Positions 19,732 through 25,209 of a stretch of 40,438 bases of DNA are shown here, piece by piece (within the stretch, counting starts at the first letter, position 1; each line of letters opens with the position of its first letter). Both the position numbers and the translations under genes were made by a program. Source of the DNA: Hoeflea sp. (GTDB taxonomy: Bacteria; Pseudomonadota; Alphaproteobacteria; Rhizobiales; Rhizobiaceae); NCBI RefSeq assembly GCF_030682515.1, contig NZ_JAUXOD010000072.1, forward strand, positions 1-40,438, read 5' to 3'. The notes under the pieces were generated by a model. It saw only the letters and a list, made by a program, of their open reading frames with translations, was not told where the DNA came from and ran no database searches.

Positions 19732-20700
19732 CTACTTCTTCAACAGATGCTTGATATCCCAGCGGTCGTGGAACCATTGCCACTGACCGGGATATTCGCG
19801 CACCCAGGATTCCACCTTGTCGTTGAGGACCTGCGCGGTGGCGGCGACATCGACGCTGCCGTCGGGCCTGCGCGGGATGTCGATGGGCGGCTCGACGACC
19901 AGCCGGTGGCGGCCGCCGGGAAGCCTTATGGCGCGCGCCGGATAGACGTCGCATTCATACTGCCTGACCAGCTTGGCGAGCAGCGGGTTGGTGTGGGCCT
20001 CGAGCCCGAAAAACCTGGTCCTGGCGCCCTTGTGGAACTTCTGGTCGACCAGCATGCCGACGCCGCCGCCGCTGTCGAGCCGGCGCGCCAGCGTGAAGGC
20101 CGCGCCTGCGCGCGAGGGCACCAGATGGCCCATCGAGGTGCGGCGCGCGGCGAGCACGCGCCTGGCGACATAGGGGTTGTTGGGCGGGCGGAACAGGGCC
20201 ATCACGTCGAGCCCGTAGGCGGCCGCGGCGATCGGCAGCAGTTCGAAATTGCCGGTATGGGCGGTAAAGACGATGAACGGCTTGTTGGCGTCGCGCAGCC
20301 TGAGAAAGTGCTCGACGCCGTCGACCTCGATGCGTCCGGGCTCGGTAGCGTCCGGATCGAAATCGAACAACTGGTCGAGAAAGACATATTCCGCCGCAAG
20401 CCGGGACATGTTGCCCCACATGTCCAGAGCGATCTCGCGCCGCTCGGCCTCCGATTTCTCGGGATAGGCCCTGGCAAGGTTCTCCATAGCCAGCCTGTGG
20501 CGCGGCGTCAGCGGTCCGATCCGGCGCGCCATCCGGTCGACGAAGGAAATCGCCTTGTCCGCGGGCAGGATCGAGATCAGCCGCAGCAGGCTGAAGATGG
20601 CTGTCGCGATCACCCAGTCCTTTGCGCGCCTGAAAGCGATGACGAGGCGCGTCAGCGCCATGCGGAGGGGACTAGCCATGGGCCGGTTCGCTGACCTCAC
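19732..20700 (-). CDS. lpxXL: Lipid A very-long-chain acyltransferase LpxXL
   Basis: This protein of about 322 residues belongs to the LpxL/HtrB acyltransferase family. An N-terminal hydrophobic segment (DWVIATAIFSLLRLISILP) anchors it at the inner membrane. The HX4E catalytic motif is HTGNFE at about residues 147-152, and GMLVDQKFHKGARTRFFG is the conserved downstream block. In rhizobia the last gene of the acpXL cluster transfers the 27-hydroxyoctacosanoyl chain from AcpXL to lipid A, and this gene occupies that position. ATG codons at 20700 and at about 20679 are both possible starts. Its 5' end overlaps the end of the dehydrogenase gene by four bases. Confidence 0.93.
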   Translation of the reverse strand: MRSANRPMASPLRMALTRLVIAFRRAKDWVIATAIFSLLRLISILPADKAISFVDRMARRIGPLTPRHRLAMENLARAYPEKSEAERREIALDMWGNMSRLAAEYVFLDQLFDFDPDATEPGRIEVDGVEHFLRLRDANKPFIVFTAHTGNFELLPIAAAAYGLDVMALFRPPNNPYVARRVLAARRTSMGHLVPSRAGAAFTLARRLDSGGGVGMLVDQKFHKGARTRFFGLEAHTNPLLAKLVRQYECDVYPARAIRLPGGRHRLVVEPPIDIPRRPDGSVDVAATAQVLNDKVESWVREYPGQWQWFHDRWDIKHLLKK

Positions 20701-21725
20701 TCCATCTTCAGGATGATCTTGCCGAAGACATCGCGGCCTTCCATGCGGGCGAGCGCCACGGCAATGTCGTCAAAGCCCACTTCGGTGTCGATGACCGGAT
20801 GCACCAGCCCCGCCGCCATCTTCTGCATGGCGTTGGCCATGTTCTCCATGCGGCAGCCGAAGGAGCCGATCAGCCGGAGCTGCTGCTGGAACAGCATCAT
20901 CAGGTTCATCTGGGTGGACACGCCCGAGGTCGAGCCGCAGGTCACCAGCCGTCCGCCGCGCCTGAGCGAGAGCATCGAGCCCGCCCATGTGTCCGCGCCC
21001 ACATGCTCGAACACCACGTCGACGCCGCGCTTCTTGGTGAGCTTGCGCACCACGCCCTCGAAACGGTCCTCTCGGTAGTTGATGACGTGGTCGGCGCCGA
21101 GCGCCCTGGCCGGTTCGATCTTGGCGTCCGACCCCACCGTGGTGATGACGGTGCAGCCGATCTTCTTGGCGAGCTGGATGGCGGCGCTGCCGATGCCCGA
21201 TCCGCCGGCATGGATGAGGATGGTTTCGCCCGGTTCGAGCTTTGCATTGTCAAACAGCATGTGCTCGACCGTGCCGAAGGTCACAGGCGCCACGGCCGCG
21301 CCGATGGCGGTGACGCCGGGAGGGGCGGGGACCAGCAGGCGGGCCGGCAGGTTGACCTTTTCCTGGGCGAAGCCGTCCAGATGGAAGCCGTGGACGCCGC
21401 CCACATGTTCGCACAGATTGTCGCGGCCTTCGCGGCAGGGGCGGCAGAGGCCGCAGGTGCGTGCGCCATAGATAGAGACCAGCTGCCCGGGCACCAGATT
21501 TGAGACACCATGGCCGATGGAGTCGATCACGCCCGAGGCTTCGGCGCCAATGACCAGCGGCATCTTGCGCTTTGCGAATGCCATGCCGCGCCATCCCCAG
21601 ACATCGATATGGTTGAGCGCGACCGCCTTGATCGCAACGGTGACTTCGCCGATGCCCGGTGGCGGCGGCGGGGACACGTCGACGGTTTCAAGCTTGCGAT
21701 CTTCGATGAGCTGCAATGCCCGCAT
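20697..21725 (-). CDS. MDR-family zinc-type dehydrogenase of the VLCFA cluster, probable enoyl reductase-like
   Basis: This 342-residue medium-chain dehydrogenase/reductase has the structural-zinc cysteines CGLCRPCREGRDNLC at about residues 95-109 and an NADPH-binding GGSGIGSAAIQLAKKIG. Where alcohol dehydrogenases have the catalytic zinc Cys, it has NHIDVWGWRG, and where they have GHE it has GAEASGVI. The catalytic zinc site is therefore apparently lost, as in quinone oxidoreductases and polyketide enoyl reductases. Rhizobial homologues at this position are usually labelled alcohol dehydrogenase. Given two ketosynthase-like proteins and a dehydratase upstream, an enoyl-AcpXL reductase role is plausible. 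Confidence 0.88.
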   Translation of the reverse strand: MRALQLIEDRKLETVDVSPPPPPGIGEVTVAIKAVALNHIDVWGWRGMAFAKRKMPLVIGAEASGVIDSIGHGVSNLVPGQLVSIYGARTCGLCRPCREGRDNLCEHVGGVHGFHLDGFAQEKVNLPARLLVPAPPGVTAIGAAVAPVTFGTVEHMLFDNAKLEPGETILIHAGGSGIGSAAIQLAKKIGCTVITTVGSDAKIEPARALGADHVINYREDRFEGVVRKLTKKRGVDVVFEHVGADTWAGSMLSLRRGGRLVTCGSTSGVSTQMNLMMLFQQQLRLIGSFGCRMENMANAMQKMAAGLVHPVIDTEVGFDDIAVALARMEGRDVFGKIILKME

Positions 21726-21884: not shown

Positions 21885-23171
<1,287 letters not shown>

Positions 23172-23184
23172 GATGGGCTCCGTC

Positions 23185-24390
23185 TCATGGCATCCTCGAC
23201 AGGCGGGCGATGCCTTCACCGCGGGCATGGCCGATGGTGGTGACGATCGCCGAACCGGCCGCGGCGGGCGCGACGGCGTCCTCACCCGCGGCGAAAGGGC
23301 TGATTGGCGCGCCGGCGTCGAGCGCCAGGCAGGCGAGCGCCAGCCCGGTGGGAAACTGGGCCTCGACGGAATGGCCGAACAGGGCGCCGATGGTGCGCAG
23401 GGGGGCGTCGGGGAATCGCGTCTTCAGGAACGTCCGTTCGCGCGCGCTCAACTCGGGAAATCCGCTCGCGCCGGAAAACACGATGGTCTCCGCGCCGGAT
23501 GCGGGCGCGCCGGCCTCATCAGCCAGGCGGCCGAGCCGCTGTTCCAGCCGGCCCTGGTGGCGCGGACCGCGATCGGCGACGACTGTGTCGAGCCGGGCAT
23601 AGATATGGGCGCCGCGGGCGGTGGCGTGCTCGAGCGATTCGAGCACCAGAAACGCGCCCGACGTGCCCAGGTTGACGCCATTGGCCGTTCCTCCGCTGTT
23701 CCAGAACGGCTGGCCGGAATTCTTGCCAAGTCCCTGGACCGCTTCGATCAGCAGCAGGATATCGAGCCGTTCGGCGATGAAGGCGCCGCCCACCAGGCAA
23801 TGGGTCGACTGCCCGGCGGCGATGCGGGCATGCGCCGTCTCCACGGCGGAAATGCCCGCGCCTTCCTCGCCCATCAGGGTGCGGGACGATCCGGTGACCT
23901 TGTGGACGATGGAGATGTTGCCCGCCAGCAGGTTGGACAATTGCGCGAGAAACAGTGTCGGCCTGAGTTCGGTGGTCAACTTGTCGTTGAGCAGCTGTTC
24001 CCGGTCGTTGCGCTTGCGGCCTTCCTCGATGATCAGCGTGTCGACGGCGGTGTCGCGCTCGCCGCCCCCGGCCGCCACGATCATGTCCATCGAACTGCAG
24101 GCCTCGATGTTGTCCTTGAAACCGGCATCGTCGAGCGCCAGGCCGGCGGCATAGACGCCGAGCCTCTGCCAGTTTTCCATCTGGCGCTGGTCGCCGCGGC
24201 GGGCAATCTGCGCCGACCAGTCAATCTCGGGAAGGGGGTGGACCGTGTAGGGCGCGAAGCGCTCGCTGTCTCTGTGGGCAACAGGGGTGGCGGCGCCGGT
24301 CAGGGCGTCATGATGGGCCTGCCGCCCGACCCCCAGCGACGTCACCAGGCCGATGCCGGTTACCACCACCTCATGGCGTGTCTGTGTCAT
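23185..24390 (-). CDS. fabF2: Ketosynthase-like FabF2 of the AcpXL cluster, lacking the catalytic Cys (chain-length-factor-like)
   Basis: This 401-residue protein has the KAS fold (VVVTGIGLVTSLGVG at the N-terminus, LGTSGAFLVLESLEHA in the middle). In the nucleophile region it reads TLMGEEGAGISAVETA (171-186) where active enzymes have TACxSG; by my alignment Glu176 replaces Cys. The first active-site His region (NAHGTS) is replaced by FSGASGFP (305-312); the second, His340 in LFGHSVEAQ, remains. Polyketide chain-length factors likewise lose the Cys (to Gln, in EQAGG). A heterodimer with FabF1 that measures chain length is therefore likely. The start overlaps the end of fabZ by ATGA. Confidence 0.9.
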   Translation of the reverse strand: MTQTRHEVVVTGIGLVTSLGVGRQAHHDALTGAATPVAHRDSERFAPYTVHPLPEIDWSAQIARRGDQRQMENWQRLGVYAAGLALDDAGFKDNIEACSSMDMIVAAGGGERDTAVDTLIIEEGRKRNDREQLLNDKLTTELRPTLFLAQLSNLLAGNISIVHKVTGSSRTLMGEEGAGISAVETAHARIAAGQSTHCLVGGAFIAERLDILLLIEAVQGLGKNSGQPFWNSGGTANGVNLGTSGAFLVLESLEHATARGAHIYARLDTVVADRGPRHQGRLEQRLGRLADEAGAPASGAETIVFSGASGFPELSARERTFLKTRFPDAPLRTIGALFGHSVEAQFPTGLALACLALDAGAPISPFAAGEDAVAPAAAGSAIVTTIGHARGEGIARLSRMP

Positions 24391-24872
24391 TGCCGGTCTC
24401 CTGCGGCTTTCGCCATGGCGGTCAAAAGGCCCACTTCCGCGGCCCGTTTGCGCACGATGTCGGCAAGCGGCACCTGGTCAAAGGGAAGGGTGCGGAGCTT
24501 GAGCTGGCAGTCGGCCACCTTCTTGCCGCCGCTCGAGATCCGGGCCTTGGCCACCGCGTAGCCCGAGCCTTCATGCTCCAGCGTGGCGGTGATCTCAAGC
24601 ACCGATCCTGGCGTCACGAAACCGCGCATCTTGGCGCCGTCCACCGTCATCAGGAACGGCATTGCCGCAAAGTCGGTCCTGGCCAGGACCAGGAACCCGC
24701 TGGCCTGGGCCATGGTCTCGATCAAGAGAACGCCGGGAACCAGCGGCATCCCGGGAAAATGGCCCTCGAAGACGGGGCTTGCTTCGGGGACCGTCGCGCT
24801 TGCGACCAGAGTTGAATGCTCGAGGTCCAGCGACTCGATGCGGTCAATCATCTGGAAGTATTCAAGCTGCAT
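24387..24872 (-). CDS. fabZ: 3-hydroxyacyl-ACP dehydratase FabZ-like of the AcpXL cluster
   Basis: This 161-residue hot-dog-fold protein has the FabZ active site. His38 lies in FEGHFPGMPLVPGVLLIE and the catalytic acid is Glu52 in IETMAQASG. It removes water from 3-hydroxyacyl-AcpXL during elongation. It sits directly after acpXL (gap of 24 bases) and overlaps fabF2 by ATGA, the standard rhizobial order. It is somewhat longer than housekeeping FabZ because of the C-terminal helix (about residues 135-161). Confidence 0.94.
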   Translation of the reverse strand: MQLEYFQMIDRIESLDLEHSTLVASATVPEASPVFEGHFPGMPLVPGVLLIETMAQASGFLVLARTDFAAMPFLMTVDGAKMRGFVTPGSVLEITATLEHEGSGYAVAKARISSGGKKVADCQLKLRTLPFDQVPLADIVRKRAAEVGLLTAMAKAAGDRQ

Positions 24873-24896: not shown

Positions 24897-25175
24897 TCAG
24901 CCCTTTGCGGCTCTCAGCTCGTCAATCTTGGCGCAGAGGTTGCCGAGAACGAAATACTCCTCGGTCGAGGCCTTGCCGTCATTGACCTCCTGGGTCCACT
25001 GTTCCAGCGGGATCTTGATGCCGAATTCCTTGTCGATGGCAAAAACGATATCAAGGAAATCGAGGCTGTCGATGCCCAGGTCGTCAATGGTGTGGCTTTC
25101 GGTCGTGATGGAATCGCGGTCAATCTCGCTTGTTTCGGCGATGATGTCGGCGACCTTGTCAAATGTTGCGGTCAC
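24897..25175 (-). CDS. acpXL: Acyl carrier protein AcpXL
   Basis: This is the specialised carrier protein for very-long-chain hydroxy fatty acids of lipid [18 protein letters not shown] holds the serine that takes the 4'-phosphopantetheine arm, and [21 protein letters not shown] is diagnostic of AcpXL rather than AcpP. I prefer GTG 25175: it reads [12 protein letters not shown] as I recall for rhizobial AcpXL, gives 92 residues, and places GAGGA seven bases upstream. An ATG two codons earlier (25181) lies only one base from the same GAGGA. It is the first gene of the acpXL-fabZ-fabF2-fabF1-MDR-lpxXL operon. Confidence 0.96.
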
Positions 25176-25209
25176 GCTCATGTCCTCATTGGATAATCAT
25201 TTGGGCGAA

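Follow-up and report, generated by a model that had tools for sequence, protein, structure and literature searches.

FabF2 of the rhizobial AcpXL cluster has a ketosynthase fold without a catalytic centre and is probably an obligate partner subunit of FabF1

The outer membrane of rhizobia and related bacteria contains an unusually long fatty acid, and the very-long-chain fatty acid (VLCFA) pathway is drawn with two elongases because both FabF1 and FabF2 are named beta-ketoacyl-ACP synthase, the NCBI family name given to each of them. The locus in Hoeflea sp. raises the question of whether FabF2 can be an elongase at all and, if not, what it does next to FabF1. The window, by which we mean the whole 40,438-nucleotide stretch of DNA that was analysed, contains the following genes on the minus strand, in an order that matches a Sinorhizobium meliloti record:

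24897–25181, minus strand: AcpXL, the dedicated acyl carrier protein (NCBIfam NF005079, 182 bits)
24387–24872, minus strand: FabZXL, 3-hydroxyacyl-ACP dehydratase (Pfam PF07977; the top NCBIfam matches are FabZ, under the cut-off)
23185–24390, minus strand: FabF2 (FabF2XL), proposed trans subunit, 401 residues with an ATG start (NCBIfam NF005084, 560 bits)
21885–23171, minus strand: FabF1 (FabF1XL), intact ketosynthase and proposed catalytic subunit, 428 residues (NCBIfam NF005076, 754 bits; Pfam PF00109 and PF02801)
20697–21725, minus strand: zinc-binding dehydrogenase in the position of AdhA2XL (Pfam PF00107 and PF08240; assigned by the S. meliloti gene order)
19732–20700, minus strand: LpxXL acyltransferase (NCBIfam NF005120, 464 bits)

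The 5′ end of FabF2 shares four bases with the 3′ end of FabZXL, and 13 bases separate its stop codon from the start of FabF1. Among the named records listed, the closest matches to FabF2 come from Hoeflea, at 78-82% identity. In Pfam the protein matches the N-terminal ketosynthase domain PF00109 with 57.9 bits, and PF02801 is unmatched.

Most of the residues that make a ketosynthase work have been replaced in FabF2, as seen at four places located by alignment with E. coli FabF and FabB, polyketide ketosynthases and polyketide chain-length factors:

23854–23886, minus strand: nucleophile loop SRTLMGEEGAG, with E176 at the Cys position
23461–23481, minus strand: VFSGASG, which replaces the first-His motif INAHGTS (most chain-length factor controls have VFADAA here)
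23362–23376, minus strand: GHSVE, with the second His, H340 (His in 151 of 166 rows)
23215–23232, minus strand: GHARGE, which replaces the GFGG gating loop

In E. coli FabF and FabB, in FabF1 and in the polyketide ketosynthases, the column of E176 is occupied by the catalytic Cys. To see how far these changes extend, 166 FabF2 rows longer than 330 residues were compared; three shorter ones were dropped and the window stands in the set twice (WIN and L012), leaving 165 distinct rows. The Cys position is E in 165 rows and D in one, with Cys in none of the 166, as in the Glu176-for-Cys replacement of the original prediction. The first His, whose NAHGTS motif had also been called replaced, is likewise absent throughout (G 153, A 11, S 2), while the second His, said to be retained, is present in most rows (H 151, Q 8, T 3, N 2, Y 1, S 1). 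Two losses come on top of those listed earlier, namely the catalytic Lys, found at residue 335 in 0 of 166 rows, and the gating loop, where GHxRGEG stands in place of the FabF GFGG. Of the features that define KAS II/FabF enzymes, FabF2 thus has the ketosynthase (thiolase) fold and lacks both the nucleophilic Cys and the full set of two His, Lys and GFGG. The alignments confirm that FabF2 is to be read as a ketosynthase fold without a catalytic centre, and that this is general across the examined rows and no local decay.

The substitution at the Cys position was also compared with 12 actinobacterial ketosynthase/chain-length factor (KS/CLF) pairs, of which nine are annotated as chain-length factors, two (L197 and L204) are labelled simply as ketosynthases and one (L206) is unannotated. 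As a kind, KS/CLF pairs are heterodimers. The CLF members have Q in ten cases and D and E in one each, in loops such as SEQAGG and GDQAGG, and an acidic residue at this place is therefore not foreign to chain-length factors. The GEE triplet of FabF2 is nearly invariant in the 166 rows, which could be taken to mean that Glu175 and Glu176 form a new active centre together with His340. We find an active enzyme of this kind hardly credible, as H340 differs in 15 of 166 rows, the C-terminal half is shortened in some second copies of FabF2, and the CLF controls have D/E followed by Q/E/D at the same place. An acidic residue instead of Cys and one mostly kept His might equally point to a malonyl-ACP decarboxylase that primes elongation, akin to KSQ domains. 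However, in those domains Cys is changed to Gln and both His residues are kept, whereas FabF2 is devoid of the first His in 166 of 166 rows and of the Lys and the GFGG loop as well; VLCFA elongation moreover starts from a long acyl chain, which leaves acetyl priming unneeded, and such a role appears very improbable.

FabF1, in turn, was predicted to have an intact active site, and the complete set of residues is indeed present, including the gating motif NSFGFGGQN and the following motifs placed by alignment:

22629–22646, minus strand: TACASG, with the nucleophile C178
22107–22226, minus strand: NAHGT (H318) to NKSMIGH (K350 and H355)

Among the 166 FabF1 rows, in which the window again counts twice, Cys is found in 165 and an X in the remaining one, and the first His in all 166.

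The two genes are closely tied to each other, as had been claimed. In 163 of 166 loci, that of the window among them, the gene directly 3′ of FabF2 is a FabF1 in the same orientation, with a median gap of 12 bases and an overlap in 12 cases. Two of the three exceptions (L027 and L043) stop at a contig edge. The third lies inside a contig and is a second FabF2 copy whose 3 kb of downstream sequence contain no FabF1 (L168/L241, contig 461 of G428), in a genome of about 550 contigs whose second FabF1 is found on contig 78 (L240), with no FabF2 in the preceding 974 bases. At cut-offs of E<=1e-60 for FabF2 and E<=1e-140 for FabF1, the two families occur in the identical 79 of the 297 genomes of the order; the FabF2 cut-off is passed by 18 of 385 genomes of the class. 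The copy counts as listed are unequal in G441, G536 and G508, and direct comparison located the missing partners as L187 in G441, a FabF1 gene in G536 whose start is truncated at the edge of its contig, and FabF2 pieces 5′ of both FabF1 genes in G508. Both genes have also been duplicated together, in G669 (L162), G477 (L185), G395 (L156 and L184) and G441 (L155 and L187); in G669 the two pairs stand in tandem with a dehydrogenase between them.

The pair is less strictly tied to the carrier protein. Among 120 loci with longer flanks, AcpXL and FabZ are both found upstream in 113, AcpXL only in one and neither in six, the last number including one locus with too short an upstream flank (L168) and one that is the second of two pairs (L162). 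As some of these loci carry neither gene, the FabF2-FabF1 pair also exists apart from AcpXL, and the genomes of the f185 group have one pair without an adjoining AcpXL and a second pair with it. A conjugative plasmid of Bradyrhizobium sp. Ash2021 carries the pair directly 3′ of a methyltransferase gene (L198 3258-6513; L245 5869-9124), with no AcpXL or FabZ annotated within the 15-kb stretch of the plasmid, and this is possibly a mobile elongase pair.

Several second-copy FabF2 proteins of the f185 group have a shortened C-terminal half and keep the N-terminal half (L184 2441-3613, L185 4084-5067 and L187 3042-3800). Their lengths are 327 and 390 residues, and L187, at 252 residues, may be a frameshift; they retain LRPTLYLAQQTQLLAGNISIVHKVTGGSRT and the KGEE after it. 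Further ketosynthase-like genes were seen in two other places. One in the genome of the window (G000:C122:42903-44111) has a single in-frame TAG and is either a broken gene or a sequence error, and a Klebsiella aerogenes plasmid record (L191 3219-6198) has fabF_6, fabF_5 and a short ketosynthase piece near lolD/lolE-like genes, which may be another ketosynthase pair.

What the protein without a centre may contribute to the pair is suggested by two of its segments, which are the equivalents of E. coli FabF regions with ACP contacts:

24166–24210, minus strand: QIARRGDQRQMENWQ in FabF2, equivalent to FabF 61-74, conserved in FabF2 and drifting in FabF1
23929–23967, minus strand: LRPTLFLAQLSNL in FabF2, equivalent to FabF 129-141, nearly invariant in FabF2 and variable in FabF1

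We take FabF 129-141 to be the pocket wall that faces the partner subunit. The ACP contacts described for E. coli FabF include K65, R68, K69, R127, K128 and I129-F132, with A205, R206 and T270 also named, and the legend of its Figure 3 attributes most of the contacts to the monomer that is not crosslinked to ACP (PMC7138838).

For 80 of the 162 FabF2/FabF1 pairs, aligned together with the 12 KS/CLF pairs and 44 FabF-type rows, conservation was measured as the entropy of a block over that of the whole protein, the FabF-type rows being the best 30 of 101 genomes, 13 from searches of the own genome and the class, and E. coli FabF, with the own FabF present twice. The segments lent to the partner are near-frozen in FabF2 and drifting in FabF1, the catalytic segments show the reverse, and the pattern is like that of the 12 actinobacterial KS/CLF pairs, so that the KS-alpha/KS-beta likeness proposed earlier extends to the conservation profile. 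For the FabF 61-74 block the values are 0.45 in FabF2, 1.98 in FabF1, 0.73 in CLF, 1.72 in KS and 0.92 in FabF-type proteins, and for the FabF 125-141 block 0.25, 2.08, 0.46, 1.29 and 0.52, respectively. In the same order, the first-His block gives 1.15, 0.22, 0.87, 0.17 and 0.43, and the block of Lys and the second His 1.02, 0.23, 0.82, 0.22 and 0.30. Three regions depart from this picture: the FabF 75-89 block has no split in the controls (KS 0.98 vs CLF 0.85), the GFGG block is conserved also in CLF (0.37; FabF2 0.72), and the nucleophile loop is conserved on both sides (FabF2 0.26, FabF1 0.31). In all 162 pairs, FabF2 residues L142 to L151, which correspond to FabF 129-138, as well as N153 and L154 have an entropy of 0 to 0.25 bits and S152 of 0.83, and the FabF1 equivalents of the FabF 129-138 region are mostly above 2 bits.

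In a circular-shift test, the contrast at the nine ACP-contact positions of PMC7138838 was reached in 3 of 410 shifts for FabF2-FabF1 and in 0 of 410 for CLF-KS; with wider blocks the numbers are 0 of 410 and 8 of 410, these blocks having been picked after the profile was known, which makes the nine literature positions the fairer test. For the difference of trans minus cis, both pairings gave 2 of 410. At position 65, where two alignments are offset by one residue, Arg or Lys is found in 78 of 80 FabF2, 12 of 12 CLF and 43 of 44 FabF-type rows and in none of the 80 FabF1 or 12 KS rows. A basic residue stands at position 68 in all 80 FabF2 rows and in 6 of 12 KS rows, against 0 of 80 FabF1 and 0 of 12 CLF rows. 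Other docking positions of FabF2 are not basic (Q/A at 69, T/N/S/D at 127 and E/D/G/N at 128 in the 80 rows), and at 128 R/K occurs in 45 of 80 FabF1 and 0 of 80 FabF2 rows; for these reasons the docking role of FabF2 is deduced from conservation more than from charge. The columns of A205, R206 and T270 are L, S and T in 80 of 80 FabF1 rows and variable or deleted in FabF2.

The single-chain AlphaFold2 model of FabF2 has a complete fold with a mean pLDDT of 92.7, which resembles KAS II chains and the actinorhodin CLF to about the same degree. Such a complete and confidently predicted fold, together with the unlinked FabF2 copy L168, would also suit a homodimer of FabF2 that binds ACP or has a regulatory function of its own and makes no contact with FabF1. 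Such a role nevertheless seems unlikely in view of the close pairing, the joint duplications and the way in which the FabF1 segments that face the partner have drifted. In a tree of 67 proteins FabF2 and FabF1 each form one group. FabF2 and the CLFs lie on one side of a branch with an SH-aLRT of 70, the grouping of FabF2 with FabF1 is not rejected (p-AU 0.551), and that of FabF2 with the polyketide KS is borderline (p-AU 0.0496). Since the tree allows FabF2 to stand with either the CLFs or FabF1, the similar motif changes in FabF2 and CLFs may be due to descent or to convergence. In a mean-field coupling analysis over the 162 pairs (effective number 58 at 80% identity and 98 at 90%, 584 columns kept), 49 of the top 100 couplings join two residues of FabF2, 7 join two residues of FabF1 and 44 cross from one protein to the other, and no clear interface emerges.

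From these patterns we infer a physical dimer and a docking role for FabF2; an influence on product length would be a further inference. FabF1 and FabF2 probably make up an obligate heterodimer that has a single working site, in which FabF2 would dock AcpXL and line the pocket in trans. FabF1 would supply the Cys-His-His-Lys chemistry and the gating loops; the growing chain would sit on its C178, and malonyl-AcpXL would be decarboxylated by it. FabF2, although chemically dead, would lend most of the AcpXL docking face for the FabF1 site and a part of the FabF1 acyl-pocket wall. The docking face of FabF1 itself would then serve the dead FabF2 site and so would be free to drift.

The original prediction had FabF2 as a chain-length factor. 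The lost active site and the close pairing with FabF1 are well supported by the sequences, and the conservation resembles that of annotated KS/CLF pairs; the evidence, however, points first to ACP docking and pocket lining in trans, with the setting of chain length as a possible further role. A strict chain-length factor, with residues that block the tunnel at its end and fix the product at C26, C28 or C30, would add to the heterodimer rather than replace it, and we give it a little less than an even chance. The near-invariant equivalents of FabF 129-141 are in its favour, as is the cavity of the aryl polyene ketosynthase ApeO-ApeC, which is lined by both subunits (PMC8358021), whereas a residue responsible for differences in length between species would hardly be expected to be near-invariant, and a fabF2 mutant is without the acid instead of having shorter ones (PMC11901934). 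A more elaborate form of the idea, a split ketosynthase of an outer-membrane lipid pathway in which one subunit carries all the chemistry and the dead FabF2 serves both as the dedicated AcpXL dock and as a ruler by which this pathway alone gets past C18 and ends at C26-C30, having arisen apart from the polyketide CLFs with similar changes at the same two motifs, is put forward only tentatively.

Published genetics bear on the heterodimer proposed here. An insertion mutant of fabF2XL in Agrobacterium fabrum has lipid A without the very long chain acid, and is partly restored by fabF2XL on a plasmid (PMC11901934); the cassette is in the first gene of a fabF2-fabF1-adh-lpxXL operon and complementation is partial, so a polar share is possible. 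As the acid is absent rather than shorter in the described mutant, the phenotype fits any essential subunit. In Bradyrhizobium ORS278, mutants of acpXL, fabZXL, fabF1XL or fabF2XL were attempted and not obtained (PMC5613085), and S. meliloti strains with a transposon in genes of the cluster, fabF1XL and fabF2XL among them, grew at a disadvantage in the medium used (PMC5539429). That the product depends on a gene with no catalytic centre is easier to reconcile with a subunit than with a second elongase. Among the matches listed in the open-licence literature, as far as their available text goes, neither a FabF1-FabF2 heterodimer nor a dead FabF2 was found to have been proposed.

The principle is already known from the KS-CLF systems of the polyketide, aryl polyene and cispentacin pathways. 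As in type II polyketide KS-alpha/KS-beta pairs, FabF2 is a Cys-less ketosynthase fold beside an intact KS gene. In contrast to KS-CLF pairs such as actinorhodin (1TQY), the order is reversed with the dead gene first, the Cys position is Glu where CLFs mostly have Gln, and FabF2 loses the Lys and mostly keeps the second His, whereas the CLF controls keep the Lys and have Arg for that His. Unlike that of KS-CLF, the pathway is a fatty acid pathway with full reduction in each cycle.

Three further systems are compared here. ApeO-ApeC is a KS-CLF heterodimer of a fatty-acid-like Gram-negative pathway, as is proposed for FabF1-FabF2, and Arg residues of ApeC have been proposed for ACP docking (PMC8358021). 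Acinetobacter ApeC is largely without the second thiolase domain, where some second-copy FabF2 are also shortened (PMC8358021); the product and sequence differ, however, and the standard FabF2 is of full length. AmcF-AmcG of cispentacin biosynthesis similarly combines an intact KS with a partner that lacks functional motifs; this partner is insoluble alone and forms a heterodimer, but AmcG is proposed to be a cyclization factor in a single extension (PMC10698177). Finally, two Rhodopirellula FabF paralogues resemble FabF2 in having Asp or Glu at Cys163, with other residues in those of Kuenenia; the latter, in contrast to FabF2, were read as possible recruiters of non-FAS products, with no partner subunit proposed in the available text (PMC2649909).

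Should FabF2 be such a dead partner, condensation in VLCFA synthesis would be the work of a heterodimer, which would explain the need for a gene without a catalytic centre, and both carrier specificity and chain length would become testable on a single dimer. Reciprocal conservation is suggested as a sequence-only test for hidden KS-CLF-like pairs in other fatty acid clusters.
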